NCBI GenBank assembly: GCA_023251155.1
Contig: JAHEZH010000011.1
Location: 1 to 59,366 of the forward strand
Source of the DNA: Flammeovirgaceae bacterium
GTDB taxonomy: Bacteria > Bacteroidota > Bacteroidia > Cytophagales > Cyclobacteriaceae
Direction of reading: 5' to 3'
Length of the DNA stretch: 59,366 nucleotides
Each line of letters starts with the position of its first letter. Position 1 is the stretch's first letter. Positions 16,244-32,004 of this stretch are shown in pieces. Both the position numbers and the translations under genes were made by a program. The notes below the pieces were generated by a model. It made no database searches and was not told where the DNA came from. It saw only the letters and a program-made list of their open reading frames with translations.

Positions 16244-18354
16244 GACAGGTGAAGTTCAGTCTTGCCGTGTGCGTGGCCATTATTATATCCCTTTCCTTGA
16301 GCTGCACCAGTGGTTGCATGGAGTAAAGGCACGTTCATTTTTATTGCCTGCTGATTGTATAATTCAATCGCCAGGTTCTCATTCGTCAAATGGTAGCGTG
16401 CACCAATGTATTTTGTCACAATGCCGTTTTCATTCTTCACAGGAACGATAGTGGCATCTACCCAATAGTGACTGCCGTCTTTCGCTTTGTTCTTTACAAT
16501 GCCCTTGAAAACATTTCCACTTTTGATGGTCTCCCAAAAAATCCGGAACAACTCTTTCGGCATGTCGGCATGACGAAAAATGTTATGTGGCTTACCAATA
16601 AGCTCGCCGCGGGTGTACTTGGATACCTCACACAGTTTATCATTCACTAGTAAGATATTTCCATGGATATCGGCTTCGGACAAAATCGTCGTGAGGGCAA
16701 ATACATTTTCGCGTACCTGCAGATCATCCTGCATTTGTCTGTTCTCCTCAATCTGACGAGCCATTTGTTCCTGTGTAGCCGACAGCTCTTCCATATTCTG
16801 GCGCATCTCTTCTTCCTGCGCTTTCAGTTCTTCTGACATTTGCTGACTTTGCTCCAGCAATGTCTTTGTATTCTCATTCACCTGCACTGTGGATATCGTA
16901 CTCGCAATGCTTTCCGCTACTTTTTCTATGAAGGTGATCTCATGATCCGCAAATACCCTGAACGAAGCCATCTCTAACACACCATATACGGTATCATTAT
17001 GCATGAGTGGAACAAGTATGATCGTACGTGGCAATGCCTGACCTAATCCGGAAGTGATGCGGATATAATTTTCAGGTACTTCTCTCAAATGAATCGTATT
17101 ACGCTCAAGCACACATTGTCCTGCAAGTCCATCACCAAAATCAATCGTACGGTTGATGAATTTTCTTTTTTCGTACGCATAGGCGGCAGCGAGTTCCAAT
17201 GAATCTTTTTGCTGACCGGATACAATGAACAACGCGCCCTGGTTTACCTTCAGGTATTTCACCAATTCTTTCAACACTTCATCAGCAAGCGTTTTTGTAT
17301 TGGTGTTATTTCTGCGAAGTACCTCACCCAGCTTGGCAAGACCTTCATTCGCCCAGTCCCGCATATTCTTTTCTGTTTCAGCAGACTTAAGATTATCGCG
17401 CATCTCTACCAGTTCCGTACCTAATATATCTTCCTTACTCAATGGCTGAAATGCAAGATCAAGATTTCCCTGACCAATTTCCTTGGCAAAGGAAGTGTAC
17501 TGCTTCAATCCATCTACCAGTGAATTCAATGAGGCCGTCATATCCCCTACTTCATCTTTACGTAAGCTATTGACATGATCTACCTGCTTGCCTTGTGCCA
17601 GTTCTTTTAGTTTTTCCTTAATCAACACAATAGCATCCGTAAGTTTCGTACTGAAGTAGAATGAAACTGATAATCCAATGGCAAGTATCACCACACCAAT
17701 GGTGATAATCGTTATAATCGTATTCCTGATCTGACCCGTTAACTCCTCTTTCTTCTTTGCTACCGCAGCATCGATCTGATCCGTATAAAAACCAGTAGAG
17801 ATAATCCAGCCTAATGGCTTGTATAGTCTTGAATACGAGATCTTATTGATCACTTCTTCACTTCCCGGTTTCTTCATGGTATATTCCACGTACGCGTCAC
17901 CGTTTGCATTGGCCAGTTCTGATCGTACCTGATAGATATTCCTTCCTTTCTCTTTCTCTACATTATGTTTGGCATCACTTAACACCTGGCCTTTCAGGTT
18001 CGCCTTCTCTGCATGCATGAGCATCGTAGGATGAGGCAACTTGTTATCCGTCACCCAGAAGTAACCTTCTCCTTTATCAAAGCGGATTTTTGACAACTGG
18101 ATCAGGGCTTCCTCCATAGTGTTCTCTTGTGTGGTATCCTTAGTTAGCTGATGTTGAGTTTCAACAACTCCATAAGCAATATCGGTGATGTGCTTGAGGT
18201 ATAATTTCAACTTTGAGAATTCCTCGCTGCGGTATTGCTCCATATCAGCCTGAGCTGTCGAATTGATTTTGTAGATGGCCAAGGAGCCAATTAATGTTGC
18301 CGGCACTAATAACGCCAGGCTAATCATCAATGCAATTTGCAGTTTTAATTTCAT
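16240..18354 (-). CDS. Cache-HAMP-GAF-PAS membrane sensor without an output domain
   Basis: A 704-residue protein: membrane segment (about 8-28), periplasmic single Cache domain (about 35-205; GEGYFWVTDN and YKPLGWIISTGFY are diagnostic), second membrane segment (about 215-240), HAMP (about 240-300), GAF (about 360-500), a coiled coil with AQEEEMRQNMEELSATQEQM (about 525-555) and a PAS domain (about 570-670). There is no kinase, methyl-accepting, cyclase or DNA-binding domain. It may pass ligand state to other proteins through its coiled coil. The tail is His/Gly-rich (NGHAHGKTELH). Upstream lies a strong LytTR-type site with a -7 box (18385-18453), and the porin gene is coupled downstream. 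Confidence 0.85.
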   Translation of the reverse strand: MKLKLQIALMISLALLVPATLIGSLAIYKINSTAQADMEQYRSEEFSKLKLYLKHITDIAYGVVETQHQLTKDTTQENTMEEALIQLSKIRFDKGEGYFWVTDNKLPHPTMLMHAEKANLKGQVLSDAKHNVEKEKGRNIYQVRSELANANGDAYVEYTMKKPGSEEVINKISYSRLYKPLGWIISTGFYTDQIDAAVAKKKEELTGQIRNTIITIITIGVVILAIGLSVSFYFSTKLTDAIVLIKEKLKELAQGKQVDHVNSLRKDEVGDMTASLNSLVDGLKQYTSFAKEIGQGNLDLAFQPLSKEDILGTELVEMRDNLKSAETEKNMRDWANEGLAKLGEVLRRNNTNTKTLADEVLKELVKYLKVNQGALFIVSGQQKDSLELAAAYAYEKRKFINRTIDFGDGLAGQCVLERNTIHLREVPENYIRITSGLGQALPRTIILVPLMHNDTVYGVLEMASFRVFADHEITFIEKVAESIASTISTVQVNENTKTLLEQSQQMSEELKAQEEEMRQNMEELSATQEQMARQIEENRQMQDDLQVRENVFALTTILSEADIHGNILLVNDKLCEVSKYTRGELIGKPHNIFRHADMPKELFRIFWETIKSGNVFKGIVKNKAKDGSHYWVDATIVPVKNENGIVTKYIGARYHLTNENLAIELYNQQAIKMNVPLLHATTGAAQGKGYNNGHAHGKTELHLS

Positions 18355-18384: not shown

Positions 18385-18453
18385 CAATAGTACGATATTA
18401 AAAAGCCGTTTTTCAAAACAATGAGCAAGTGGAATTACTTGCTTAGCAAGTGG
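18385..18453 (-). promoter_or_regulatory. LytTR-type direct repeat plus promoter (site A) for the sensor/porin operon
   Basis: On the minus strand CCACTTGCTA (complement of 18444-18453) and CCACTTGCTC (complement of 18423-18432) form a direct repeat with a 21-base period. The -7 element TACTATTG (complement of 18385-18392) follows after 30 bases, and a TTTTG lies about 21 bases before it. The sensor ATG is 30 bases beyond the -7 box. The same layout recurs at three more places on this strand. That is the geometry of a LytTR activator site; the regulator assignment is inferred. Confidence 0.7.
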
Positions 18454-18486
18454 AAAAACAGTTGTAAGGAAGCACCTACTGCCTGC

Positions 18487-19551
18487 CTAGAAATAGGCAA
18501 CTACCCGTTTGGGCATCTCCTGAAGGGCCATCACCTGGTCAGCGGCTCCCAGCCTGATGGCTTCCTTCGGCATGCCGAACACCACACTTGATTTTTCATC
18601 CTGTGCAATGGTCTTTGCCCCTGCCGTCTGCATGTTTAGTAACCCATCGGCGCCATCGCGCCCCATGCCCGTCATGATAATACCTACTGCGTTCTGTCCG
18701 GCATGTTTGGCTACGGAATTAAATAACACATCAACGGATGGCTTATGCCGGTTGACCAATTCACCATCGCGCACTTTAATAAAATATTTTGCACCGCTAC
18801 GGTACAATTCCATATGTCGTCCACCGGGAGCGATATAGGCATGACCTCGCATCACGCGTTCACCATCTGTTGCTTCTTTCACTGTTACTTCACAAATCGT
18901 ATTGACCTGGTCGGCAAATGACTTGGTGAAACCGGCAGGCATGTGCTGGGTAATTAATATACCGGGGCAGTTGGCCGGAATACTACGCAAAAAAAAACGC
19001 AACGCTTCCGTACCACCCGTGGAAGCCCCAATGGCAATGACCTTATCCGTTGTTTTATAGATCGGTGAGTTTGGATTGGTTGGATCGGGCTTCACTCCTG
19101 CTGCGTACTCCACACTTGGCTTATTCATCGCCGTTTTTCTTACCGGTACCATACTCGCTGCTTTGATGGCGTCCGTTATGCGGATCTTCGATTCTTCCAG
19201 ATGTTCTTTTGTATTTCGTATCTCTGACTTCGCTACAATTTCAATGGCTCCTAATTCCAATGCACGCAAGGCAAGATGACTTCCATTCTGTGTAAGGCTG
19301 GAGATGATTACTACCGGCACCGGATATTGAGCCATCAGCGATTTCAGAAATGTAAGTCCATCCATGCGCGGCATTTCCACATCCAGTGTAATCACATCCG
19401 GTATTTCACTGCGTATTTTCTGTGCGGCAAAATACGGATCGGCTGCGGTGCCCATCACCTCCAGCTGCGGATCAGAATTGATGATCTCTGTCAGTGTCTG
19501 CCTGACCAGGGCCGAATCGTCACATACCAAAACCTTTATGGATTTCTTCAT
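18487..19551 (-). CDS. cheB: chemotaxis protein-glutamate methylesterase CheB
   Basis: A 354-residue two-domain enzyme. The N-terminal receiver (residues 1-120) has the CDDS acidic pair and phospho-acceptor Asp57 in LDVEMPRMDG. The C-terminal methylesterase/deamidase (about 165-354) has the catalytic IGASTGGTEAL, ITQHMPAG and MTGMGRDGADG motifs. It removes methyl groups from receptor glutamates when phosphorylated by CheA. The start overlaps the end of cheD by 32 bases, so expression is coupled. Full length and all catalytic motifs are present. Confidence 0.96.
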   Translation of the reverse strand: MKKSIKVLVCDDSALVRQTLTEIINSDPQLEVMGTAADPYFAAQKIRSEIPDVITLDVEMPRMDGLTFLKSLMAQYPVPVVIISSLTQNGSHLALRALELGAIEIVAKSEIRNTKEHLEESKIRITDAIKAASMVPVRKTAMNKPSVEYAAGVKPDPTNPNSPIYKTTDKVIAIGASTGGTEALRFFLRSIPANCPGILITQHMPAGFTKSFADQVNTICEVTVKEATDGERVMRGHAYIAPGGRHMELYRSGAKYFIKVRDGELVNRHKPSVDVLFNSVAKHAGQNAVGIIMTGMGRDGADGLLNMQTAGAKTIAQDEKSSVVFGMPKEAIRLGAADQVMALQEMPKRVVAYF

Positions 19552-20023
19552 TGATCTCTGCTGCTGTTTTTACCAGCAAGCGCATACGCACTTTGCCAGT
19601 AGATGTATTAAAAACTATTTTCCTTCCGTAACTCCCTCCCACGTGCTTCGCGGCAACGTGAATATCAAATTCCTTCAGCACCGATAGCGCCATTTCCACA
19701 TTGCGTATTCCAATGCGGAACAGATCATTATTCTGGTACAATGAATTACAACCGCCAAATACTTTCGCATCCAGTTGCTCAATGCACGACTTTCTGTTGA
19801 GCATCGATTTGATAAGCATACGGGTGGCGGATAATCCGCGATCGGCATTGCCTGTATCTTCTTCATTGCCCGGTAGCAGGTAGTGATTCATTCCTGCCAG
19901 GTGTGTCTGTTTATCCCAAAGGCAAACCGAAACACAGGAACCCAATACCGTGCTGATGAGCAGCGGTGCAGACGAGACCACAAACTGTCCGGGGAACAAG
20001 GTATGCTTTCTTAGTTCACTCAT
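19520..20023 (-). CDS. cheD: chemoreceptor glutamine deamidase CheD
   Basis: A 167-residue CheD homologue. The catalytic Cys lies in TVLGSCVSVCLWD and the His in LAGMNHYLLPG, with a downstream KVFGGCNSL segment typical of the family. It deamidates receptor glutamines and in other bacteria cooperates with CheC; no cheC is visible here. The gene overlaps cheR by four bases (ATGA) and cheB by 32 bases, forming a cheR-cheD-cheB adaptation operon. Confidence 0.94.
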   Translation of the reverse strand: MSELRKHTLFPGQFVVSSAPLLISTVLGSCVSVCLWDKQTHLAGMNHYLLPGNEEDTGNADRGLSATRMLIKSMLNRKSCIEQLDAKVFGGCNSLYQNNDLFRIGIRNVEMALSVLKEFDIHVAAKHVGGSYGRKIVFNTSTGKVRMRLLVKTAAEINEEIHKGFGM

Positions 20024-20865
20024 CCGTTGAATTGATACACCGTAGGACGTACCTGTGTCAAAGGCAATTTCATGCCCATGATGGATTCGCTATGCCCCAG
20101 AAACAAAAGTCCGCCAGGTCGCAGATGCGTGCAAAACTTCCTGATTACTTCCTCTTGCGTAGGCTTATCAAAATAGATGAGCACGTTACGACAAAAGATA
20201 ATATCGTAATCACTCTTCAACAAGCCAAAACTGGTATCCATCAGGTTGATGCGCTTGTATTGTATCTTCTTGCGATACTGCGGCTTTATTCTGGCCAGGT
20301 TAGAATTCGTTTTGCTGCGAAGAAAATAATTTCTCTTCCATTCCATAGGGATAGCAGCAAGACGATCTAAGGTATAAATACCGCTGAATGCCGATTGAAT
20401 AACACGAAGCGAAATATCACTGGCCAGTAAACTATAATTCAATACGGGATTGCGCTTCTTAAACTCTTCCAGCACCATGGTCAGCGTGTAGGGCTCTTCA
20501 CCGGTAGAGCAGCCTGCCGACCATATTTTAAGATTAGTATGTTCCGCCAGGTAAGATGGTAAAAATTCACCTGACAGGTAAGAGAAATGAGCTGGCTCAC
20601 GGAAAAAGTCCGTTTTATTGGTCGTAATCAGATCGATCACATGAAAGAGTTCGGTCTGCTTTCCGTGGTCACTGAAAATATAATCCAGAAATTCTACATA
20701 CGAATTCATACCCAGGCTCTTAATCTTTTTATTGAGCCTGCTTTCAAGCATCGATTTCTTTACGGGTGGAAGCTTGATACCATATTCCTGAGTTACATAG
20801 CTGCTCAGTCGATCAAAGCTGTCCTTATCTATGCGTATAAAAGCGTTTACGCTGGGGGCGTCCAT
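20020..20865 (-). CDS. cheR: chemotaxis protein-glutamate methyltransferase CheR
   Basis: A 281-residue SAM-dependent methyltransferase. The N-terminal helical CheR domain contains TTNKTDFFRE. The catalytic Rossmann domain has the SAM-binding IWSAGCSTGEEPYT, IIFCRNVLIYFD and FLGHSESI. It methylates glutamates on the chemoreceptor encoded upstream. It is the first gene of the adaptation operon. The upstream region holds a partial LytTR-like half-site (AAGTAAGTGT at 20918-20927) with TACTTTAA 29 bases downstream, a weak promoter candidate. Confidence 0.96.
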   Translation of the reverse strand: MDAPSVNAFIRIDKDSFDRLSSYVTQEYGIKLPPVKKSMLESRLNKKIKSLGMNSYVEFLDYIFSDHGKQTELFHVIDLITTNKTDFFREPAHFSYLSGEFLPSYLAEHTNLKIWSAGCSTGEEPYTLTMVLEEFKKRNPVLNYSLLASDISLRVIQSAFSGIYTLDRLAAIPMEWKRNYFLRSKTNSNLARIKPQYRKKIQYKRINLMDTSFGLLKSDYDIIFCRNVLIYFDKPTQEEVIRKFCTHLRPGGLLFLGHSESIMGMKLPLTQVRPTVYQFNG

Positions 20866-20945
20866 AATCGCTTTGGTTAGTTAAAGTAATTTTCTAAAAT
20901 CGTTGAACGGAATGTAAAAGTAAGTGTCCGCGGATAACGTTACCG

Positions 20946-20971
20946 AAGTGCTGTTATCCTGCGGAGCACTT
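20946..20971. repeat. inverted repeat between the chemoreceptor gene and cheR
   Basis: AAGTGCT at 20946-20952 and AGCACTT at 20965-20971 form a perfect 7-bp stem with a 12-base loop, in the 147-base gap after the chemoreceptor stop. There is no T run on either side, so it is not a clear intrinsic terminator. It could mark an RNA-processing or partial termination point between the two che transcripts. Confidence 0.4.
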
Positions 20972-21012
20972 AACCCCCTCAGCTTTACAAAAGCAAAGGA
21001 GGTACTTATAAC

Positions 21013-23166
21013 TTAAAATTCAGTGAAGTCACTATCCGAAACCGAATCATCCAGCTTCAGATCAAAACCCTTGATGTCATCCGCGTGACCGTTACCATTG
21101 CTGGAAACATTCACCTCCGCACGGCTCACCGGCTTGCGGCTTTTGGTGGTACGTGTCGATGACTTAGCTACCTTCGTCCGGTTATCTAATTTGAAGTAGC
21201 TCACTGCTGCCTTCAGTTCTTCGGCCTGGCTGCTCAGCTCTTCTGCGTTGGATGACATCTCTTCCGCTGCCGAGGCATTACCCTGCGTAACACTGGATAA
21301 TTGCTGTATCGCACCATTCACTTGTTCGGCACCTGTGTTTTGTTCCACGCTTGCAGCCGCAATTTCCTGAACCAGTTCCGCCGTCTTGTTAATGTCCGGC
21401 AATGTATTCGTCAGCATCTCTTTTGACTCCTGTGCTGACTTCACGGTCTTTGATGAGATCTCTGTAATCTCGGCAGCCGCTTTCTGACTTCTTTCCGCCA
21501 GCTTGCGTACTTCCGCAGCAACTACAGCAAAACCTTTTCCATGTTCACCGGCACGGGCAGCTTCTACGGCTGCATTCAAGGCAAGCAAATCGGTCTTGGA
21601 CGCAATCTCTTCGATGATGGCAATGCGCTCAGCAATAGTAGTGATGGCTTCCACGGTACCAGATACGGACTGGCTGCTGACCTGAATATCCTTTGCTGCT
21701 TTATTGGCAATCTTCTCTGTCTCACGCGAGTTGTCGGTGTTCTGCTGAATGTTAGCCACCATCTGCTCCATGGAAGAAGACACTTCTTCCGCTGCACTCG
21801 CCTGTTCTTGCGCACCTTGCGACATTTGTTGCGAGGCCGAAGCTACCTGCTGCGAGGCGGCGGAAACATTTTCAGCACCGTTATAGATTGAGGTGGCTAT
21901 CTCACGAAGGTTAACCACCATTTCTTCCAATGCCTGGTCCAAATCTCCGCCTTTATTTTTAATGCTGGCAAAGTCAATCGTTAAGTCACCTTTCGAAACG
22001 CGTTTGGCTACATCGACAGAGCTACGCAATTTCTCGATCATGAATTGAAGTTCCCTCAGCATAAAACCAATTTCGTCTTTCTTGTCGGCATTGACATCGG
22101 CAGAAAAATCTCCTGCCGCAATTTTCTTGATGGCCACGGTAGCCTGCCCCAGTGAAGACATGACATCCTTCAACAACCAGGTAGCTACTAAAATACCCGT
22201 CACAATGGCCAGGAGAATAACAATGATCATGGTGGTCACTACACTGTCATACATATCATCCGTATCTTTTTGATCTTTGGCAAGCTGAACATTAATGATG
22301 TCGTAAATCTTAGCAATCACCCCATCTGCCTGGTCATCGATGGCTTCGCCTTGCGTGACCGAAATCTCTTCTGCCTTAGCTCCGGAATTGGTCTTTGCCA
22401 AAGCCCTTACCTGCAAGTGAAAAGTGTGGTAGGTGGAATATTGTGCTTCAAAATTGTCGAACAATGATTTTACCTCACCGCTGAGTTGGTGATCAAGCAA
22501 TGCGGCTTTCTCTTCCACCACCTTTTCGGCTTCACCCACCTGTATCATGTGCTTGTCCAGATCATCGTCTGTCTTCGCAATAATCATATCGCGCTCAATC
22601 GAGTTGATTTCGGAAATAGCCTGTTTCAAATCAAGCAACGACTTGACTAATTCTTTGGAGCCAAGCTGACCGCCAATTTGGTTGAGCGTTGCCATCACCC
22701 GCTGGTATGCATTTCTTGATTCATTGTCCGCAATCTCCTCGGCTTTGATTTCTGTATTTTGTGTCGCAATACGCTGCACGTTTTGCTGCACGATGAAGTA
22801 TTCTTCCAGAATTGCTTTCAGTGATTTCACCAGCACCAGTGTTTCACCATCACTGATGCTTTCCATCTTCTCAATATTTTCGTTGATCGACTTGATTTCT
22901 TTATCAATCGTTCTTCCGATTTCAATCATTTTCTCATCATCTACGGTAGCAATCATGTTTTTCTGATCGCGTGAAATGGCGGTGATGTCGTGCTTGATCT
23001 GGCCGATCAGCAGCACTTTGTGTGAAGTGACGTTGGTGATTTCGCTCATGCGTTGGTTCATCTCACGGAATCGGGCAAAGGCAATCGAAAAAATCACAAT
23101 CATCAATGCAATCAGCACCGAGAAAGCCATGATCAGTTTCTTACGGATAGTCATGTTTGTTAGCAT
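21013..23166 (-). CDS. methyl-accepting chemotaxis protein (chemoreceptor)
   Basis: A 717-residue class I receptor: membrane segment (about 8-28), a long helical four-helix-bundle-type periplasmic domain (about 30-305), a second membrane segment (about 310-333; [16 protein letters not shown]), HAMP and a HAMP-like linker (about 333-440), then the methyl-accepting signalling domain. The hairpin tip [19 protein letters not shown] that contacts CheA and CheW is intact. Gln/Glu-rich stretches flanking it ([30 protein letters not shown]) are plausible methylation sites. An alternative ATG is four codons in. It is the only classical receptor in the window and lies just downstream of cheW. Confidence 0.95.
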
Positions 23167-23182
23167 TGTACTTGGGGGGTTA

Positions 23183-23665
23183 TTAGTTTAATGATTTATT
23201 AAGTTCAGTTACATCGCTCATCGAAAACACTTTTCGAATGTCCATGATCAGCGTAATGTCTCCGTGGTTATTCACCAGGCCGGTAATGGGCGCTGATGTT
23301 TTATAATTTTCAAACTCGGGCGCTTCCTGGATTTCCCGGGATGACAGTTCGATTACTTCTTTCGCCACATCCACCATCGCTCCGATCTGCAGGCTCTTCT
23401 CATCCCCATCCTGGATATCAAGAACAAGTACACGGCTTTTTTTGGTGGTTTGTGTTTTCGGAAGACCCAGTTTCTGTTTGGTGTCCAGCAAAGGCAAAAC
23501 GCGACCGCGAAGGTTGATAATACCCAGCATGTACTCCGGTGCGTGAGGCACTTTGGTAATTTGTTCCAGCTCCACCACTTCCTGAACATGATCTACCGGC
23601 AAGGCAAATTTTTCATCACCGAGGGTAAAGGTCAGGTAAGCCTTGGAAATATTTTCAATATTCAT
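23183..23665 (-). CDS. cheW: chemotaxis coupling protein CheW
   Basis: A 160-residue single CheW domain: [21 protein letters not shown] at the N terminus, [16 protein letters not shown] in the receptor/kinase interface, and a C-terminal [14 protein letters not shown] strand. It bridges the receptor tip and CheA. It lies 11 bases after cheA and 16 bases before the receptor gene, consistent with one operon. Confidence 0.95.
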
Positions 23666-23676
23666 ACGTAAGTGAA

Positions 23677-25680
23677 TTAATTTTGAGACAATAAGAATAA
23701 GCGATAAGGATCAAGTACCAGAGCAAGGCTTCCGTCACCCAGTATCGTACTGCCTGATATAAAATCCTGGTGTTGATAAACTTCACCCAGCGGTTTCAGT
23801 ACTGTTTGCATTTTGCCTTCAATGCGATCAACGGCAAGTCCTTTTTTTACACCATTGATGGTAATCGAAATGACATCGGCCGTTTTGGGAGCCACATCCA
23901 TGATCCTGAATTCCTTACGCAGTGAAAACACGGATAAAGGCTCCTCATTCACCATCACCATTTTATTTACGTTCTCTTCCCGGTCCAGTGATTCATAGCT
24001 GATCCGATCAATGCGGTCCACCACATTCATCGGCACTACGTAACGCGTGTTGGCAACACGCACAAGTAGTCCTTCGATGATGGAACGGGATAAAGGAAGC
24101 TTGATATGAATAGAAGTTCCTTTCCCCGGAACACTTTTAACCGTAACGTGACCTCGCAAATCGTTTATCTTTTGCTGCACCACATCCATACCTACACCGC
24201 GACCAGATACATCGGAGATAACCGAAGCCGTTGATAGTCCGGGATGGAAAATCAAACCAAGAATTTCTTCTTCTGTGAGTTCGGCCTCAGCATCCACAAC
24301 ACCTTTCTCGATCGCTTTCTTCAACACACGCTCTTTATCGATACCCTTTCCATCGTCACTGATGATCAGGTTGGCAAATGAGCTGGAATTAAATGCTTTC
24401 AGCTTAACCGTTCCGTGTTCTGATTTGCCAGCTGCCTTTCGCTCCGAAGGTTTTTCAATTCCATGATCAATCGAATTACGGATGATGTGAATCATCGGCT
24501 CGGTCATTAACTCGATCACATCCTTGTCCATCTCCGTCTCCGCCCCTTCCGAAATGAAGTTTACCTTCTTATCCAATGTCTTAGACAGATCACGAACCAG
24601 ACGTTTGAATTTGGTGACAAGGGTTTCAATCGGTACAAGCCCGATCTCGAGCGAAGTATCGCGCAGGCGGTAGGTAATCATTTCCAGTTGTTCCGTTACT
24701 TCCGTCAATGCCACGGAGTTCACCTTGGCCGATGCCGTTGACAATTGCGCCTGCAGAATGATCAGCTCACTAATCCAGTTAAGCAAGTCATCGATCTTGC
24801 GTTTGCTTACTTTGATATAACTATCATTGGCAACGCGTTTCTTCGATGTGGCGGATTCCGTTTCTTCTTCCTCATTTTCCTGCTGACCAAACGAAGCCAG
24901 GCGAAGAGCTATAATGGGTTGAAGCTTTTCCATCTCAACAGCATTACTTCCAAGCGAATCAAGATAAGCTACGAACTCAGGCTGCTCGAATAAATCGCAG
25001 GGCGTTAGCTTGGTATAGTTAACGGTACATTCATTTTCAACAAACAGGAAATAGCTTTCCAACTCTGCCTGCGGCGTAGTGGTAGTCAGAAACAATTCCC
25101 AGGAAATGATCTCACCCGAGTCTTTCTTCAGCAACTGCGTACGCGATGTACCCAATGCTTCCATATCCTGAATGATAAACACCAGCGGATGATTACCATC
25201 GGCGGTAATAGAGATAGTGGGTTGAATGCGGATCAGAAATGTAGCCAGCTCATCTTTTTCGATAGCGGCAACATTCGTCAGCGAATTTTCCATTTCCCGT
25301 TCGGATGACTTGAGGAAATCAATCGCAATCTTGAGATGATCTTTCAGTGCATCAGCATTCAATATCTTGTCGGCATCTTTCTCTTTAAAAAGATCGCGTA
25401 CTTTATCGAACGCATGGAGCGTGATGCTGATCAGCCCATCATTGATTGGCATCTTGCCCTGGCGGACAAGATCATACAATGTTTCCAGGTGATGAGCGAG
25501 TTCACCAATGGTAGGAAAACCAAACATGTTGGCTCCCCCCTTGATGGTGTGCATCGTACGGAAGACTTGCTCAAGAGGTGCTGATGCCTGCGGATTGGCC
25601 TCCAGTTGCAGGAGGCCTTCGTCCAGTTCATTCAGCAGATCCAGCGCATCTTCGACGAAACGCTTTTGGTTACTATCCAT
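23677..25680 (-). CDS. cheA: chemotaxis histidine kinase CheA
   Basis: A 667-residue kinase when started at ATG 25680, where the Hpt domain begins (MDSNQKRFVEDALDLL). The open frame continues to 25746 but would then run deep into cheY. The Hpt domain carries His44 in TMHTIKGGANMFG. A poorly conserved middle region (about 150-310) follows, where a CheY-binding P2 domain would lie. Then come the dimerization domain, HATPase_c with HIIRNSIDHGIE, DDGKGID and GRGVGMDVV, and a C-terminal CheW-like P5 domain. All catalytic motifs are intact. Start and stop of cheA and cheY overlap by 8 bases. Confidence 0.95.
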   Translation of the reverse strand: MDSNQKRFVEDALDLLNELDEGLLQLEANPQASAPLEQVFRTMHTIKGGANMFGFPTIGELAHHLETLYDLVRQGKMPINDGLISITLHAFDKVRDLFKEKDADKILNADALKDHLKIAIDFLKSSEREMENSLTNVAAIEKDELATFLIRIQPTISITADGNHPLVFIIQDMEALGTSRTQLLKKDSGEIISWELFLTTTTPQAELESYFLFVENECTVNYTKLTPCDLFEQPEFVAYLDSLGSNAVEMEKLQPIIALRLASFGQQENEEEETESATSKKRVANDSYIKVSKRKIDDLLNWISELIILQAQLSTASAKVNSVALTEVTEQLEMITYRLRDTSLEIGLVPIETLVTKFKRLVRDLSKTLDKKVNFISEGAETEMDKDVIELMTEPMIHIIRNSIDHGIEKPSERKAAGKSEHGTVKLKAFNSSSFANLIISDDGKGIDKERVLKKAIEKGVVDAEAELTEEEILGLIFHPGLSTASVISDVSGRGVGMDVVQQKINDLRGHVTVKSVPGKGTSIHIKLPLSRSIIEGLLVRVANTRYVVPMNVVDRIDRISYESLDREENVNKMVMVNEEPLSVFSLRKEFRIMDVAPKTADVISITINGVKKGLAVDRIEGKMQTVLKPLGEVYQHQDFISGSTILGDGSLALVLDPYRLFLLSQN

Positions 25681-26050
25681 TGCTGATCGCGTTTTCGATC
25701 TGTGCGAAAAACGTTTCGGCACGATACGGCTTTTTAATCCATGCACTCAGTCCTGCATCTTTGGCGGCACGCATTTTATCCGGATTCGATTCTGTCGTCA
25801 AAAAAATCACAGGTACCTTAGCGACTTCCGGATGGGTCTTGATTTTTTTCAACAACTCATATCCGGTGCAATCAGGCATGTTATAGTCGGTAAGCACAAG
25901 ACTTACTTCTGCATAATTGTCACTCAATACATTGAAGGCTTCATTGCCATTGGCTGCACTCAACGTGCTATAGCCTTTTCTTTCCAGTGTTTCACAAACA
26001 AACTGGCGAATACTTGTAAAATCGTCAACTACTAAGATTGTCTTTTTCAT
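25673..26050 (-). CDS. cheY: chemotaxis response regulator CheY
   Basis: A 125-residue receiver: VVDDFTS acidic pair, phospho-acceptor Asp in LTDYNMPDCTGYE, switch Thr in FLTTES and Lys in IKKPYRAE. Position before cheA with an 8-base overlap supports CheY. No flagellar switch gene is in the window, so its target is probably a gliding component or another effector rather than FliM. The outer-membrane pseudogene ends 40 bases upstream, so cheY may be read from the LytTR-type promoter at 26991-27059. Confidence 0.92.
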   Translation of the reverse strand: MKKTILVVDDFTSIRQFVCETLERKGYSTLSAANGNEAFNVLSDNYAEVSLVLTDYNMPDCTGYELLKKIKTHPEVAKVPVIFLTTESNPDKMRAAKDAGLSAWIKKPYRAETFFAQIENAISNG

Positions 26051-26090
26051 CTTGGGGGATTTTAATTATACGTGATATTAGATTACTGAA

Positions 26091-26967
26091 TTAATAAGCA
26101 GGCTCAATAGAGAGATAGATAAAACCACCTCTGTTTTCAAATTCGCCATTGCTAAAATTGATCGGCATACCTAAGCCGGGCACAATTTGTACTTTACCTA
26201 TATCCAGCGCAAAGCGAAAGCCGGGATTGATAATGGTTGAATTATCTTTGACCAGGGAACCGTCATCCTCAATGGCTTCACCAAAAGTAGACAGGTATTC
26301 TACCATGATATTGAATTTTGGTTTTACCAGCCAGATCACACTTCCGCCCACATTCACTGAACCTAAATGCTTTTACTGCCGTACCATCGGCGGCATAATT
26401 GAAATGATCGGCTTTATTGATAAGGGTATAACCGCCATTGTAGTGCGTAGTGATTTTACTGTTGAGACGTTTGGTAACCGCCAGATTGAACTGACCTCCC
26501 CAACCACCGGCACCTAAACCATAACGTGCATTACCGGTGGGAATGATTACGGTGAAGCGTGGAATAATCAATGCCCACTTGTCTTTACCCCAGATCTGCG
26601 GACGATAGTTGACAACAACATCTCCCAGACCGTTGGTCAGAAATTGCGTGCTCCCGATGGGAGTTAAGCCTTCCGGTTTTTTCTGCGACGCATAGGAAAC
26701 GCCAAAGCTTAACTGATGCTTTACATCGGCCAAGGGAATTTCCTGAGTATACGCGAAAGCAAATTCTTTTCCTGTAAAAATGAAATTGGAGATATGCTGA
26801 ATAACCCCAGACTCTTGGTTGAACGCTTCCTCGATAAACATCGAGTTATCTTCAATGGAAGGCTGACCGTAGTACAGATAGCTGCCTTTCTTCGGGATGG
26901 AATCAGCTACTTGTGCCTGAGTGCTCAGGCTAAGAATCAATAAAGAAGCGAGTAAACAATGTTTCAT
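26091..26967 (-). pseudogene. frameshifted outer-membrane beta-barrel (transporter-like) protein
   Basis: Two overlapping frames together encode one outer-membrane protein of about 290 residues. The first starts at ATG 26967 with a signal peptide (MKHCLLASLLILSLSTQAQ) and barrel strands up to TAVKAF. The second frame continues with GSVNVGGSVIWLVKPKFN and ends in a typical terminal strand (GGFIYLSIEPAY). The two join if one base near 26364 is removed, so there is a single-base frameshift: recent inactivation, phase-variation-like slippage or a sequencing error. The residues fit putative outer-membrane transporter barrels of Bacteroidota. It is the first gene after LytTR-type site B and precedes cheY by 40 bases. 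Confidence 0.7.
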
Positions 26968-26990
26968 CTTTTTTGGGTTAGTTGATGAAA

Positions 26991-27059
26991 CAAAGGTCTG
27001 TACCTCACCTGCAGGACTTGTCCACATTGAGTAAGTGGAGCTGGCTATCCTCTAACTGG
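26991..27059 (-). promoter_or_regulatory. LytTR-type direct repeat plus promoter (site B)
   Basis: Minus strand: CCAGTTAGAG (complement of 27050-27059) and CCACTTACTC (complement of 27029-27038), 21-base period. After 30 bases comes GACCTTTG (complement of 26991-26998), close to TAnnTTTG. The ATG of the outer-membrane gene is 24 bases beyond the -7 box. The distal half is close to AgrA-type LytTR half-sites (ACAGTTAGG). The site may also drive cheY-cheA-cheW-mcp downstream. Confidence 0.65.
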
Positions 27060-27275
27060 CAGGTTTTACTTATCCGGAGAATTGAAACTAAAATTTCTAC
27101 GCAAGAAGCAAGTAAGATTGAATTAGAATTATGTTAAAATCTTATTAGAACTTTATAGTTCCCAGACAGTATTCCGATGAAACAACAGTAATGCCGATGA
27201 AGTGATGATCGTTACTTTAAGTGTACTTTGTAAACAGAGAAATTGGACTTGGTATGAATCCGGATAGGCCCATAA

Positions 27276-27355
27276 TAAAAAAAGGCCTCCGGAAACCACT
27301 CCGAAGGCCAACACCCTAAAACACCTATCCCAAATGAACCGGGATTGCACTTATG
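27276..27355 (-). ncRNA. putative LytTR-controlled small RNA of about 80 nt
   Basis: This minus-strand segment starts 6-7 bases after the -7 element of site C and ends at a strong intrinsic terminator. Read 5' to 3' it holds a small hairpin (ATCCC paired with GGGAT around a nine-base loop), a single-stranded G/U-rich linker of about 17 nt (AGGTGTTTTAGGGTGTT), and the terminator stem. This is a common small-RNA layout. A 65-codon frame from GTG 27350 runs through the hairpin, but the perfect dyad with a T7 run argues for termination. Alternatively it is a terminated leader of that frame. Confidence 0.5.
27277..27309 (-). terminator. intrinsic terminator of the putative small RNA
   Basis: On the minus strand GGCCTTCGGA pairs with TCCGGAGGCC (10 bp, one G-U) around a six-base loop and is followed by seven T residues. 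On the plus strand the same position would be a C-A mismatch and no T run follows the hairpin, so it is directional. Confidence 0.8.
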
Positions 27356-27360
27356 CACTG

Positions 27361-27430
27361 CAATAGTACAATCAAAACATAGAAGTTATAACAGGTAATG
27401 AGTAAGTGGTCGGTATAAATGAGTAAGTGG
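27361..27430 (-). promoter_or_regulatory. LytTR-type direct repeat plus promoter (site C) for the putative small RNA
   Basis: Minus strand: CCACTTACTC twice, identical (complements of 27421-27430 and 27400-27409), period 21 bases. After 31 bases comes TACTATTG (complement of 27361-27368), identical to site A. It is the cleanest copy of the motif, yet no convincing protein gene follows; what follows is the short hairpin-terminated RNA. It begins 26 bases after the stop of the upstream kinase-like gene. Confidence 0.7.
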
Positions 27431-27455
27431 TCAAAAAATGACCTGCCATCATTAG

Positions 27456-28550
27456 TTATAACAGGGGCAATTGACTTTCGCGCTGAATAGGAATCAATGC
27501 AGATATAAGCTGATCATAATCATTGAAGAACTCGATTTTCAATAAGCAATGCAAATGCATCGCTACTTTTTGCGCCGCATAGTAATTCACCAGCAACGGG
27601 TAGCTCAGCATATCATTGTATATGAAAGACGGCCGCTCAATGGCCTTGCGCACCTGCGGGTTTACGGCAAAACCGGAAGCCTTCATCTTGATTTCCAGGT
27701 GATTGTCTTTAATGGAAAAAACAGTCTGTATCTCATTTTTGTTGGTGATGGGCAAACTGAGAACATATAAAAGCAAATTATTCGCAAATGCAGTTACCAG
27801 AAATTCATTCAACCCCCACACCTCCTTTTGTGGAGCAGTGATACGCAGAGAGATGGAGTCCAGCTCGCAGTTATTGGCAAGGGTGCTACGCAGTGCATCT
27901 TTCAAATGGGAGAAATCAACACACCCGCGGGGAGGATGAGGAGTCGCATCGGTATCGGCCAGGTAAAGTAATTTAAACAAGCGTTCATCCAGCTTATCGG
28001 CATGTACCTCAATGAGTTTCACCAAATCATTGATCTCCGTGTCGTCCTTCCTTATTTTGATCAGATTAATTAACCCCTTCACCGTGGCCAGCGGACCACG
28101 AAGGTCATGCGCTGTTCTGTAAATAAAGGCATCCAACTCCCGGGTCTTCTTATACAATTCCCTTTGTAGAAAAGCAGTATCTTCTGATATCTTGATTTTT
28201 ATGATGATGTACCCGTTGATATCACTGATCAGGCCAAGATAAAAACCAGATAGGCTTACGCGAAGATTGAGATTACTCCGGGTAGTGAGCTCTAATGAAA
28301 CATCCTCAAAAAACCCTTTACGAAGTTCTCTTTCGATGACCTTTTTGAAATCATTATGGGTGCTGATGAAATCAATGGACTTATCATGCAGCTCTGCGGA
28401 AGTGTACTCCAGCAAGTCTTCCAGATTCTTACTGACCACTTTGATCCGATAGTCCGCTTGCAAGACAATCGAGTCGACAAAGATCGAAGCAAGCCGTTGC
28501 TTGATTTCTTCTTCAGAGATCAGATAACCAGATATTTCCGGATGATTCAA
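27456..28550 (-). CDS. PAS-HisKA protein with degenerate ATPase domain (pseudokinase)
   Basis: A 364-residue soluble protein. An N-terminal PAS domain (about 20-125) is followed by a convincing HisKA domain with His148 in YRTAHDLRGPLATVKGL. The region where HATPase_c should lie (about 215-364) keeps the length but not the motifs. The N box is replaced by VTAFANNLLLYVL, the DNGxGI box by a segment reading SGFAVNPQVR, and no GxGLGL is visible. It is unlikely to bind ATP normally. It might be a phosphotransfer dimer, a decoy or a structural partner of the neighbouring sensors. The start is a TTG at 28550, since no ATG or GTG lies between it and the upstream stop. Confidence 0.75.
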   Translation of the reverse strand: MNHPEISGYLISEEEIKQRLASIFVDSIVLQADYRIKVVSKNLEDLLEYTSAELHDKSIDFISTHNDFKKVIERELRKGFFEDVSLELTTRSNLNLRVSLSGFYLGLISDINGYIIIKIKISEDTAFLQRELYKKTRELDAFIYRTAHDLRGPLATVKGLINLIKIRKDDTEINDLVKLIEVHADKLDERLFKLLYLADTDATPHPPRGCVDFSHLKDALRSTLANNCELDSISLRITAPQKEVWGLNEFLVTAFANNLLLYVLSLPITNKNEIQTVFSIKDNHLEIKMKASGFAVNPQVRKAIERPSFIYNDMLSYPLLVNYYAAQKVAMHLHCLLKIEFFNDYDQLISALIPIQRESQLPLL

Positions 28551-28667
28551 TGTGTTTTGTCTAAATCTTAACTATTCGCTTCAACTTACTCAAACAATAC
28601 ATCCCTCATGTCTTACTTTTGTTGCCAGTAAAGATTCAGGGCACTTCATTCACCAATGTTGACTTGA

Positions 28668-31004
28668 TCAGACCAATGATCCCTTTTTACTTTTGGCTAA
28701 CTCCAATTCTAGCTTTTGAATACGTGCTATATACTCTTGCTCTGTCTTCTTGAATTTCTCCATTTCAGCAAGCCGTATCTTTTCTACTTCTTCCGCCTTA
28801 AGAGTTACATTTTCCTGTATGGATTGCATTTCTTCCATGTTCTGGCGAAGCTCTTCTTCCTGAGCTTTCAGTTCTTCAGTTTGCTGTTGCGACTCCTTCA
28901 GCAATTGCAGGCGTTGCGTAATGTCATGCGCGATCAGGCTCACTCCTATAATTTCACCTTTTGCGTCTTTCAATGGATTATAAGACACCTGAAAGTCGCG
29001 GTCAAAGTGATGACGATGCGGCTCTTCCACATGCTCTCCGGCAAATGCTTTGATATAGGGTTGCTTAAACTTTTCTTCGGCCTTTTTGTCCCCTTTCGCC
29101 ATGGCAAGCAAACTGGATCCGGGTTCTACGGGTAAGCCGTATTTCGAAAATACGTGTTTAAAAGCCGAGTTTGCCACGACAATGGTGTAGTTCCTGTCAA
29201 TCGTAACCACACAATCAGACATGCCTTCAATCACATCATGGTAGTAACGTTGAAGGTTTTCTGCTTCTTTCTGCGCTTTCACTGTCTGCGTGGTGTCTTT
29301 GGCAAACACGGCAGCTGCGATAATCTCGTTCTTCTCATTGCGCAACGGACTATAAGTGATCACAAAATAAGAATCAAATCCATGAGAATGATATTCTTCG
29401 ATCACCTCAAAAGATTCCCCCTGCAATGCGCGGTCATAATGCGCTTTGAACTTTGGCCACTCCTCTTCACTGAAGATCTTACTCAGATCAAATCCCTTCT
29501 CAATCTTGATGCCCATGCCTGAATAGCTGGCAGACATGGCTTCATTAAAATGGACAACGCAGTAATTACGGTCTACCGAAATGATGGTGTCTTTGGTGGA
29601 ATTGATCATGTCAATCATGTATCGTTCCTTGGCCTGAACCTCATTCAATACACGCTGCATTTCCTCTTGCGTGGCCGAAAGCTCCTCCATATTCTGGCGT
29701 AGCTCTTCCTCCTGTGCCTTTACTTCTTCGGCTTGCTGCTGCGCCTCCGTAGCCAGTCGTTTTGACTCGTTCAACGCAGTGGTGAGCATCGTTACATCTC
29801 GACCGTAAATGGCTGCAGCAAACACTTCTCCGGTAACGGTGCGCAGGGGAGAATAATTGGTGGCGTAGTGAGCGATACTTCCGCCAACATTCAGCTCTTC
29901 AGTAACATCCAGATTTTCACCGGCCAGGGCACGCAGGTAATACGAGCGCTGCTGTTCTTCTTTCTTTTTGTCATAGCTGAATATGGAAAGGATCTCAAAA
30001 CCCTTTTCTATTTGAAATCCCATCGCTTCAAGACCAGACGAGAACGCCTTGTTCCAGCTGATGAGTTTGATATCCCTGTCTACGGTGAAGATCGAATCTT
30101 TGGAAGCGTTCAGTATCTCATTCACATAAGCTTCATTCGCCTGTACTTCCTTCAGCACACGATGCATTTCCTCTTGTGTGGCAGCAAGTTCTTCCATATT
30201 CTGACGCATCTCTTCTTCCTGCGCACGCATTTCTTCCGCCCGTTGTTGCGATTCACCCAACAGCTGCCTGGTGCGCTCACTTATTTTGACAGAAGAAATA
30301 GTTGAAGCAATGCTCTCTCCCAGTTTTTCAACAAACTCAATCTGGTGAGGAAGTATTTTTTCAAAAGAGGCAATTTCGATCACCCCAAATACAGTCTGAT
30401 CTATTTTTAATGGAACAATGACAAGATTACGCGGTAATGCTTCACCCAGCCCGGAAGTGATTCTCATGAAATCGTTAGGCACATCGGTCATGTAAAGTGT
30501 ACTCTTTTCCAACACCACCTGCCCCGCCATACCCTGACCTAACTCGATACGATTGTTCAAATGCTTCTTCCTGTTATAGGCATAGCAGGCCGCCATTTCA
30601 AGATAAACCTCCTTCGGATTGTTATCATTCAAAATGTACAAGGCACCCTGATTGGCGTTCAGGTACTTGATCAGGCTACGGATAATGTTATCGGTGAGTT
30701 CGGCGATATTATCATTTTTTGATCGGAGGATATCGACAAACTGTGCCAGACCTTGCGTTACCCAGTTGCGCTGCTTTTCTTCGTTTGCAAACTGTTTCAT
30801 CTGGTCGCGCATACTGGTCAGCGATGAGGCCAACACGTCCTGATCGGCTCCATGTTCACTGTCAAGGGTGGCATCCAGATTTCCATGCTCAATTTCTTTC
30901 ACAAATCGGGTAGCACTGGCAATTTCACTTTGCTGTTTCTTCACAAGTTGCTGCAAATCAGAAAACTGTGCATTTCTGATTAAAGTATGAGATAAAATCT
31001 TCAT
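28668..31004 (-). CDS. soluble GAF/triple-PAS sensor with repeated signalling coiled coils, no output domain
   Basis: About 778 residues. A HAMP-like or helical N terminus (about 1-85) precedes a GAF domain (about 105-250; ITSGLGEALPRNLVIVPL), then three PAS domains (about 295-405, 450-565, 575-690). Each sensory unit ends in a copy of a coiled coil (AQEEEMRQNMEELAATQEEM and variants), the last being a long C-terminal coil. The GAF and first coil closely resemble those of the Cache sensor at 16240, so the two are paralogues. No kinase, methyl-accepting or DNA-binding domain is present. ATG 31004 is preferred over GTG 31013. LytTR-type site D lies upstream. Confidence 0.8.
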   Translation of the reverse strand: MKILSHTLIRNAQFSDLQQLVKKQQSEIASATRFVKEIEHGNLDATLDSEHGADQDVLASSLTSMRDQMKQFANEEKQRNWVTQGLAQFVDILRSKNDNIAELTDNIIRSLIKYLNANQGALYILNDNNPKEVYLEMAACYAYNRKKHLNNRIELGQGMAGQVVLEKSTLYMTDVPNDFMRITSGLGEALPRNLVIVPLKIDQTVFGVIEIASFEKILPHQIEFVEKLGESIASTISSVKISERTRQLLGESQQRAEEMRAQEEEMRQNMEELAATQEEMHRVLKEVQANEAYVNEILNASKDSIFTVDRDIKLISWNKAFSSGLEAMGFQIEKGFEILSIFSYDKKKEEQQRSYYLRALAGENLDVTEELNVGGSIAHYATNYSPLRTVTGEVFAAAIYGRDVTMLTTALNESKRLATEAQQQAEEVKAQEEELRQNMEELSATQEEMQRVLNEVQAKERYMIDMINSTKDTIISVDRNYCVVHFNEAMSASYSGMGIKIEKGFDLSKIFSEEEWPKFKAHYDRALQGESFEVIEEYHSHGFDSYFVITYSPLRNEKNEIIAAAVFAKDTTQTVKAQKEAENLQRYYHDVIEGMSDCVVTIDRNYTIVVANSAFKHVFSKYGLPVEPGSSLLAMAKGDKKAEEKFKQPYIKAFAGEHVEEPHRHHFDRDFQVSYNPLKDAKGEIIGVSLIAHDITQRLQLLKESQQQTEELKAQEEELRQNMEEMQSIQENVTLKAEEVEKIRLAEMEKFKKTEQEYIARIQKLELELAKSKKGSLV

Positions 31005-31027
31005 GTGGGTCACTTTTTTCGCCTATG

Positions 31028-31096
31028 CAATACTAACCTTCGATTAAAAAAAAACAGGTTAAAATGAGTAAGTGGCGGAATTAATTGAGCGGGCGG
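31028..31096 (-). promoter_or_regulatory. LytTR-type direct repeat plus promoter (site D)
   Basis: Minus strand: proximal half CCACTTACTC (complement of 31066-31075); distal half CCGCCCGCTC (complement of 31087-31096) matches 6 of 10 positions at the same 21-base period. After 30 bases comes TAGTATTG (complement of 31028-31035). The GAF/PAS sensor ATG is 24 bases beyond the -7 box. The divergence of the distal half could make this a weaker site than A or C. Confidence 0.6.
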
Positions 31097-31248: not shown

Positions 31249-32004
31249 TCAGAGTTTATATCCAATACGATCCAGAAAAGCTTCTTTCTTTCTCTTGGAA
31301 ACATCGAGGGAGGTATCGTTGTTCATGACCACATAGCCACCATCTCCGCGTATGTATTTTTTGATCAGGTTAAGATTGATCAGGTACGAGTGATGTATGC
31401 GAAAAAAGTTACTTTCCGCAAGCATTTCTTCGTATTCCTTAAGTGTGCGGCTTACCAAATGCTTCTTGCCATCCAGCATATGAATGTGAGTGTAGTTACT
31501 TGAAGCTTCACAGTAAACAATATCGTTTACTTTAATAAATATCAATCCATCGGATGTAGGTAATGCCAGCTTGAAGTTTTCTGTATTACCTCCTTTCAGA
31601 TTATCCATCAATTGCTCCAGGCGGCCGGTAATACTTCCACCTATTTTCTTTTCTACTTTCAGTAAAGAAGCTTTTAGTTCCTCAATATCAATAGGTTTGA
31701 GCAGGTAATCAATGGCTGAAAATTTAAATGCCCTGATGGCGTATTCCGAATACGCCGTAGTAAAAATGACTTCAAAGTTAATAGCACTGATTTTATTGAG
31801 CAGGTCAAAGCCTGTTTCGCGCTGCATTTGTATATCCAGAAAAATAACATCGGGCTTGTACTTGTCAATAGCGGCTATGCCTTCTGACACGTTTTGACAG
31901 AGTGCACTCACTTCAACGCCAGTACAAAAGTCTTCGATTAAAATACGCAGGCTTTCCCTGCTCTTCAATTCATCATCGATAATAATGCTTTTCAACATAG
32001 ACAA
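31249..32004 (-). CDS. LytTR-family response regulator
   Basis: A 251-residue LytR/AlgR-type regulator: receiver (residues 1-125) with IIIDDE and phospho-acceptor Asp57 in FLDIQMQRETGFD, Lys in LLKPIDIEE, then a LytTR DNA-binding domain (about 145-250; IVYCEASSNYTHIHM, FFRIHHSYLINLNLIKKY). LytTR domains bind two roughly 9-bp direct repeats one or two helical turns apart, usually just upstream of the promoter. The partner kinase lies 84 bases upstream on the same strand. It is the only LytTR gene in the window and the natural candidate to bind sites A-D. A second in-frame ATG two codons in could be the true start. Confidence 0.95.
   Translation of the reverse strand: MSMLKSIIIDDELKSRESLRILIEDFCTGVEVSALCQNVSEGIAAIDKYKPDVIFLDIQMQRETGFDLLNKISAINFEVIFTTAYSEYAIRAFKFSAIDYLLKPIDIEELKASLLKVEKKIGGSITGRLEQLMDNLKGGNTENFKLALPTSDGLIFIKVNDIVYCEASSNYTHIHMLDGKKHLVSRTLKEYEEMLAESNFFRIHHSYLINLNLIKKYIRGDGGYVVMNNDTSLDVSKRKKEAFLDRIGYKL

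Follow-up and report, generated by a model that had tools for sequence, protein, structure and literature searches.

The stretch of DNA analysed here, hereafter the window, comprises 59,366 nucleotides from a Flammeovirgaceae bacterium (assembly GCA_023251155.1, contig JAHEZH010000011.1, positions 1 to 59,366). Its chemosensory genes are interspersed with four minus-strand sites, A to D, each combining two direct repeats of period 21 bp with a box resembling the Bacteroidota -7 promoter element, 30 or 31 bp past the repeats. As a composite pattern these sites are unique in the genome, they share one geometry, and sites of this type are linked to orthologues of a LytTR-type response regulator encoded next to site D. 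We consider it likely that this regulator and the PAS-LytS kinase encoded beside it control a local regulon via A-D, in which binding, activation, a triggering signal and the co-transcription of the che genes are predicted features. The same site pair stands at four promoters and, in many related bacteria, is again found next to the gene of this regulator; a single two-component system therefore probably turns on sensors, outer-membrane channels and chemotaxis-type genes jointly. Most probably the system as such is an ordinary LytS/LytTR pair whose targets are unusual, and from the sequence evidence we regard the prediction of a canonical LytTR regulon with such targets as well-supported.

In the mechanism that we propose, a cytosolic signal would be sensed by the PAS domains of the kinase, with consequent phosphorylation of the regulator (31249-32004). 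The phosphorylated regulator would bind as a dimer to the two period-21 repeats, centred ~58 bp upstream of the transcription start, and would recruit the housekeeping RNA polymerase to a Bacteroidota-type -7 promoter. This would switch on, as one set, a sensor and a porin from A, an outer-membrane protein along with cheY-cheA-cheW-mcp from B, GAF/PAS and PAS-HisKA proteins from D, and a short terminated RNA from C.

Sites A to D and the LytS/LytTR pair

The components of the four sites and the two genes of the pair are the following:

18423..18453, minus strand: site A dimer, CCACTTGCTA-N11-CCACTTGCTC, direct repeats with period 21
18385..18392, minus strand: site A -7-like box TACTATTG, 30 bp past the dimer; ATG 30 bp on, at 18354
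27029..27059, minus strand: site B dimer, CCAGTTAGAG-N11-CCACTTACTC, period 21, weak first repeat
26991..26998, minus strand: site B -7-like box GACCTTTG, 30 bp past the dimer; ATG 23 bp on, at 26967
27400..27430, minus strand: site C dimer, CCACTTACTC-N11-CCACTTACTC, both copies perfect, period 21
27361..27368, minus strand: site C -7-like box TACTATTG, 31 bp past the dimer
31066..31096, minus strand: site D dimer, CCGCCCGCTC-N11-CCACTTACTC, period 21, weak first repeat
31028..31035, minus strand: site D -7-like box TAGTATTG, 30 bp past the dimer; ATG 23 bp on, at 31004
31249..32004, minus strand: regulator with receiver and LytTR DNA-binding domains (PF00072, E 3e-20; PF04397, E 1.1e-20)
32089..35160, minus strand: LytS-type kinase with several PAS domains (PF06580, E 8.5e-22 at residues 819-898)

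All four sites are intergenic and located where the initial annotation had placed them; upon re-measurement, the period was again 21 and the gaps 30, 30, 31 and 30 bp. The promoter-proximal (second) repeat, read and measured directly, fits CCACTTRCTC at each site. The decamer repeat that had been described for all four is strong at A and C and weak at B and D, because the first repeat has four mismatches to CCACTTACTC in each of the latter (two in D if Y/R is allowed). With this imperfection at B and D, the 10-bp repeats spaced 11 bp apart have the canonical layout of a LytTR site, which is described as 9-bp direct repeats 10-13 bp apart, most regulators acting as activators bound upstream of the -35 region (PMC11347149). 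If the -7 box is set at -12 to -5 (PMC9723704), the dimer extends from about -74/-73 to -44/-43 with its center at -58/-59; the promoter-proximal repeats of AgrA are reported to be centered near -60 (PMC4227749).

The regulator displays the FhRhHRS-type motif of LytTR domains, whose sixth residue is N in the AgrA described in PMC4227749, as FFRIHHS at positions 200-206; R202, H204 and S206 are invariant in nine aligned orthologues (window included), the eight others carrying FYRIHNS, FFRIHNS or FFRVHNS. The nearest NCBIfam model is BtsR (NF008677), with 137.8 bits, below its equivalog cut-off of 246. The kinase has the motifs PHFIFNALNSI and VENAILHG, and a hydropathy scan found no membrane segment in it.

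A composite pattern, CCACTTRCTC-N30/31-NANNWTTG, which was fitted post hoc to A-D, matches these four sites and no others in the whole genome (333 contigs, 6,440,426 bases), with zero matches for the reversed-pattern control; this speaks against the motif being equally common elsewhere, which the initial annotation had named as a refuting outcome. A stricter box, TANTATTG, retains A, C and D and loses B. Dinucleotide shuffling of the window (500 replicates) leaves on average 0.002 matches to the composite pattern, with four being reached in no replicate; the genome-wide scan and the shuffles together rule out a chance origin of A-D. Outside the motif, no more than 7-13 of the 29 positions in the spacers between dimer and box and 8-15 of 38 in the DNA that follows are identical, which rules out that A-D are copies of one duplicated segment. 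A uniform scan of the whole window recovers one chance-like extra match inside mcp (21759, plus strand). The same scan finds no site upstream of the kinase gene, and autoregulation of the LytS/LytTR genes was accordingly rejected. As a separate observation, the genome (G000) has a fifth composite site on contig C77 (11386-11455; L100:9387-9456, plus strand), between an RNase HII gene, which it follows, and a TANGO2-like gene ~100 bp further on.

Recurrence of the site beside orthologues of the regulator

An orthologue of the regulator with at least 59% identity is present in nine of the 62 genomes of the genus, namely the own genome and eight others, and in all of these eight a dimer lies near the orthologue under relaxed rules. 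When the dimer alone was searched in 58 relatives, 20 matches were obtained versus 10 in the reversed control, and in three of the genomes concerned (G012, G017, G031) the dimer is located 0.1-2.1 kb from the orthologue. The composite pattern with N31, allowing up to three mismatches, has nine matches in the 62 genomes; these fall in six genomes, all carriers of the orthologue, as opposed to 0 of 53 non-carriers (hypergeometric probability 1.4e-6), and the reversed control has two matches. The N30 version matches six places, comprising A, D, three readings of previously counted sites in a shifted register and a single site in a non-carrier (G015). The -7 boxes of the relatives are exact TAnnTTTG in two stretches (L101, L102) and have one to three mismatches elsewhere.

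For a comparison under one uniform criterion, a site within 3 kb, we assembled 22 orthologue loci of at least 57% identity from a named collection and 390 genomes of the order, with the window included and five duplicates removed. Eleven of the 22 have a site (13 sites in 126 kb), versus one of 71 non-orthologous LytTR loci (one site in 1,183 kb, the whole fetched stretches being scanned) and none of 29 loci of the genome's own paralogues (87 kb, ~1.5 kb on each side, one further paralogue match having been left out). The absence of conservation upstream of orthologues, which the initial annotation had named as a refuting outcome, is thus not what we see: the site recurs beside them. The regulator of the window falls, in a 30-row tree, into a clade of 14 rows with support 91/91, which is below the star mark of the tool; 12 of these rows are labelled as having a site and two as weak, where the labels take in G016 and G059, which need relaxed rules.

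Predicted target genes in the window and in relatives

On the minus strand, read from right to left, Pfam gives the order kinase, LytTR regulator, site D, GAF-PAS, PAS-HisKA, site C with its RNA, site B, beta-barrel, cheY-cheA-cheW-mcp, cheR-cheD-cheB, site A, dCache-GAF-PAS and Porin_O_P. The features that follow the sites are:

16240..18354, minus strand: target A1, dCache-GAF-PAS membrane sensor, 704 residues
15032..16243, minus strand: target A2, Porin_O_P outer-membrane porin, with a 4-bp overlap with A1
26278..26967, minus strand: target B1, outer-membrane beta-barrel-like protein with a weak Phenol_MetA_deg match
25673-26050, minus strand: cheY, probable operon B
23677-25746, minus strand: cheA, probable operon B
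23183-23665, minus strand: cheW, probable operon B
21013-23166, minus strand: mcp, probable operon B
20020-20865, minus strand: cheR, after a 147-bp gap behind mcp
19520-20023, minus strand: cheD
18487-19551, minus strand: cheB
28668..31013, minus strand: target D1, protein with a GAF and three PAS domains, without predicted membrane segments
27456..28550, minus strand: target D2 (probable), PAS-HisKA protein
27277..27356, minus strand: predicted RNA of ~80 nt from site C, with a deduced start and a strong terminator (stem 27309-27284, then seven T)

The overlapping A1 and A2 appear to form one operon. Residues 1-286 of A1 resemble the chemoreceptor model CtpM (103 bits; cut-off 900), and neither an MCPsignal nor a kinase domain was found in the protein. 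The genes cheY-cheA-cheW-mcp (21013..26050) are probably co-transcribed from B, as suggested by their spacing and by the Fulvivirga and Chryseosolibacter loci described below; cheR-cheD-cheB (18487..20865), which lie beyond the 147-bp gap, are possible members of the same operon. The reading frame of B1 seems to be shifted near its 3' end (26090-26400, minus strand), due to either a real mutation or a sequence error; the other frame runs on and stops 40 bp before cheY, and the gap to cheY is therefore smaller than the list of open reading frames implies. D1 shares 53% identity over 553 residues with one of the site-led genes of G031. Pfam did not recognize an ATPase domain in D2, which could be a pseudokinase or act in phosphotransfer; a gene before cheY in Chryseosolibacter is related to its N-terminal part. 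By eye D2 has a good H-box, and NCBIfam gives it a weak PhoR-like similarity. We also noticed that GAF/PAS sensors without a recognized output domain (28668-31013, 16240-18354 and L087:10331-13294) have in common a helical motif like AQEEEMRQNMEELSATQEEM, which by eye resembles the signalling tip of MCPs.

In the RNA at site C we found no convincing open reading frame, and no conservation of it in the 62 genus genomes: six of these match at E<=0.01 and the own genome alone does so in full, four of the other five matches covering 22-36 bases (the 3' part of the terminator, the T run or beyond) and one covering query bases 20-46. It might serve as a regulatory RNA, or be a relic or a by-product. 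The window as a whole has neither Rfam matches at gathering score nor tRNAs.

The genes led by the site in relatives fall into comparable sets. In G017, G031, G027 and G016 the site is followed by a gene of 384-435 residues (partly cut in two of the fetched stretches) and one of 135-148 residues, and then by relatives of the GAF-PAS and PAS-HisKA proteins and by CheR- and CheB-like genes. In G012, G062, G076 and G059, it is followed by genes for proteins of ~360 and 156-167 residues and for a 532-residue relative of the GAF sensors, in which HAMP and GAF domains were found in the case of G076. The first genes of the G031 and G017 sets have weak outer-membrane-type Pfam matches, and those of G076 and G031 are 36% identical; the first genes of these sets are predicted to code for outer-membrane barrels. 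The gene set led by the site in two Fulvivirga species, F. lutimaris and F. kasyanovii, comprises Porin_O_P, MCP, CheW, CheY, CheA, a response-regulator gene, CheR and CheB, in this order, these calls being based on Pfam for part of the genes and otherwise on similarity to window proteins. Chryseosolibacter histidini (L119:10780-10810) has a degenerate dimer, N31 and TATCCTTG, followed by PASHisKA-like, cheY, cheA, cheW, mcp, OEP, cheR and cheB genes; its che proteins are 60-78% identical to those of the window, and the locus has the same amidohydrolase and rhodanese neighbors. What the predicted sets have in common is that an outer-membrane-type gene accompanies a chemoreceptor-like sensor. 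That the che core itself is controlled is supported for the window, for Chryseosolibacter and for Fulvivirga, and finds no support in the relatives from the genus.

Two minor observations pertain to the genus sets. The second genes of G031 (L087:9866-10312, 148 residues) and G076 (L097:10317-10787, 156 residues) show weak PBP_like_2 matches under the Pfam cut-off, with none detected in G062, the third genome covered by these scans. G031 (L101:10886, minus strand) and G017 (L102:5914, plus strand) have a second site with a perfect -7 box before similar lipoprotein-like genes of ~50 residues.

Rival readings and the wider occurrence of the geometry

Several observations weigh against the regulon as proposed. 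At the sites themselves, the first repeats are weak at B and D, and a perfect TAnnTTTG is found in none of the four boxes, each having one mismatch (TAnTATTG at A, C and D; GACCTTTG at B). The dimer alone, searched at up to three mismatches in the own genome, is found four times, at A, C and D and once on contig C77, and misses B; because the reversed control equals it, with four, the dimer alone is not specific. Among the relatives, G016 has a dimer only at period 20 and G059 a -7 box with three mismatches, both near misses, and the boxes of G012, G062 and G076 have two mismatches each. The Y positions entered the pattern once the first relatives had been inspected, which has favoured the result somewhat. 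Further, 11 of the 22 orthologue loci fail the uniform criterion: G016 and G059 are the near misses just described, four (L119, L121, L211, L218) hold degenerate candidates only, the candidates of L215 lie beyond the 3-kb limit or under the cut-off, and at L213, L216, L217 and L219 no convincing site was found. Label shuffling on the tree gave no support for a clustering of the site labels (500 of 500 shuffles were as low), in a test that sets the site rows against the four weak rows only. With respect to the targets, cheA was not found in the fetched stretches of the genus relatives, among which CheW/MCP-like genes occur solely in G059, ~13 kb from the regulator. Lastly, the N31 pattern matches 11 of the 390 genomes of the order, namely the own genome and ten non-carriers (a carrier having a regulator match at E<=1e-75), and hence just one of the 13 carriers in this sample; the reversed control has two matches (G071, G432). 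With ten of the 11 matching genomes being non-carriers and 12 of the 13 carriers lacking a match, a motif exclusive to orthologues of the regulator is ruled out. The LytTR regulon over A-D put forward in the initial annotation is supported, since the composite motif is not common elsewhere in the genome and the site does recur at orthologues, and before che sets in two Fulvivirga species (in degenerate form in C. histidini). It needs two corrections: half of the orthologue loci lack the site by the uniform criterion, and half-site and spacing are not private to this regulator.

These points bear most directly on the alternative that A-D are LytTR sites at which another LytTR regulator of the genome, or several with cross-talk, mainly acts. 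The genome holds 31 LytTR matches, so that nearness alone cannot name the regulator, and in other genomes half-sites resembling those of A-D, arranged alike, are found after LytTR genes from other subfamilies; the single match among the 13 carriers points in the same direction. Specifically, five of the 11 pattern-only sites outside the own genome are directly downstream of Pfam-LytTR genes of other subfamilies (L229, L232, L235-L237). Of the other six, four fall in coding sequence, namely L234, L238 and the pair L233 and L239 (the pair in one repeat-rich gene, L238 in another); the remaining two, L230 and L231, are upstream of near-identical acyltransferase genes (Pfam on L230 only). In the three genomes of one genus represented by L235, L236 and L237, the site sits between a LytS-LytTR pair and an open reading frame of 122-146 residues that resembles a lone LytTR domain (Pfam on L235 only). 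The half-site is thus probably in part common to several subfamilies, a sharing that weakens the sole use of the site by one regulator and favours the LytTR reading itself; given the 31 matches and these related half-sites, a paralogue could act at some of the sites. On the other side, none of the 29 fetched loci of the own LytTR paralogues (a 30th was left out) has such a site, and the distribution of the sites within the genus follows that of the orthologues of this regulator. We hold it to be unlikely that another regulator is the main one at A-D.

Control by the window regulator could also take another form, in that the protein binds A-D but represses, or acts at some of the sites only, C being a relic or B inactive. 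A LytTR repressor, CoxC, has been described with an operator that overlaps the -35 box (PMC11347149), and both the weak first repeats at B and D and the lack of conservation of the RNA at C would fit such a reading. However, the dimer at A-D lies upstream of the core promoter, with its center near -58 as for the AgrA repeats, and does not overlie it; repression or partial use therefore strikes us as rather improbable. It is very improbable indeed that the motif belongs to another DNA-binding factor and is close to LytTR genes incidentally: A-D are tied to the LytTR protein by linkage, the repeat geometry is of the LytTR type, five pattern-only matches in other genomes adjoin LytTR genes, and Pfam, applied to 20 proteins from 13.2 to 38.2 kb of the window, finds no other DNA-binding domain, three of these proteins matching no family.

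We also looked at whether the geometry of A-D, with the repeats upstream of a -7-like box, is found near LytTR genes of other subfamilies. The test covered 58 of the 71 non-orthologous loci on both sides (13 loci were excluded by hand) and the 29 own paralogues on one side. At a repeat identity of at least 9/10, period 21 occurs in four of 145 regions and 16 other periods total three; at a minimum of 8/10, periods 21 and 18 score five each. The excess of period 21 is suggestive only. Taken with the pattern-only hits beside LytTR genes, this count indicates that the architecture is probably general for LytTR promoters in this group. Three loci near other LytTR genes (L134, L147, L148) display a different half-site, TTTCAGAAA-like, in a 21-bp repeat that ends 30 bp before a -7-like box, hinting at subfamily-specific half-sites within one geometry.

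We tentatively extend these results to a broader proposition, which we put forward as possible rather than probable. In one lineage of Cytophagales-like Bacteroidota, a PAS-LytS/LytTR system might be dedicated to sensory make-up, co-inducing porins, chemoreceptor-like sensors and the CheA/CheW core on an intracellular cue; its promoter code (21-bp dimer, 30-31 bp, TAnnTTTG) might be general for Bacteroidota LytTR regulators, with half-sites differing by subfamily. If true, one transcription factor would jointly set receptors, signalling core and porins, such that the cell tunes the permeability of its outer membrane jointly with its chemosensory make-up. The geometry also points to a straightforward way of predicting LytTR regulons in a group in which as many as 31 LytTR matches occur in one genome; were the code general, these regulons would be readable from sequence.

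There are parallels and differences with respect to known systems. AgrA of Staphylococcus aureus is alike in its two direct repeats near -60 and in its FhRhHxS motif (PMC4227749); it answers to a peptide quorum signal, according to one account (PMC10482373), and serves virulence functions, in contrast to the predicted promoter of the Bacteroidota -7 type and the proposed chemosensory targets here. In Pseudomonas aeruginosa, AlgZ/AlgR involves a LytTR-family activator of surface-motility genes that acts at the fimU-pilE type IV pilus promoter (PMC4064291). The available part of that source names pilus genes and no che operon among the AlgR targets, unlike the che, porin and sensor genes of the window. 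As in other che clusters, CheA, CheW, CheY, CheR, CheB, CheD and an MCP are all present in the window; unlike in those, LytTR-type sites as well as genes for a porin and for GAF/PAS sensors are interspersed with them. Among the openly licensed papers listed, no title or abstract start mentions che operons as being under LytTR control. BtsS/BtsR (YehU/YehT) of Escherichia coli is likewise a LytS/LytTR pair, whose regulator is the closest NCBIfam model with a score under the cut-off. BtsS is reported to bind pyruvate by a membrane input domain (PMC10653868), whereas the window kinase has PAS domains and, by hydropathy, no membrane segment. The target of BtsS/BtsR is a pyruvate transporter, as against the sensors, porins and che genes proposed here. 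The BtsR motif, ACC[GA]CT[CT]A-N13-ACC[GA]CT[CT]A, fits site C exactly, including the 21-bp period.

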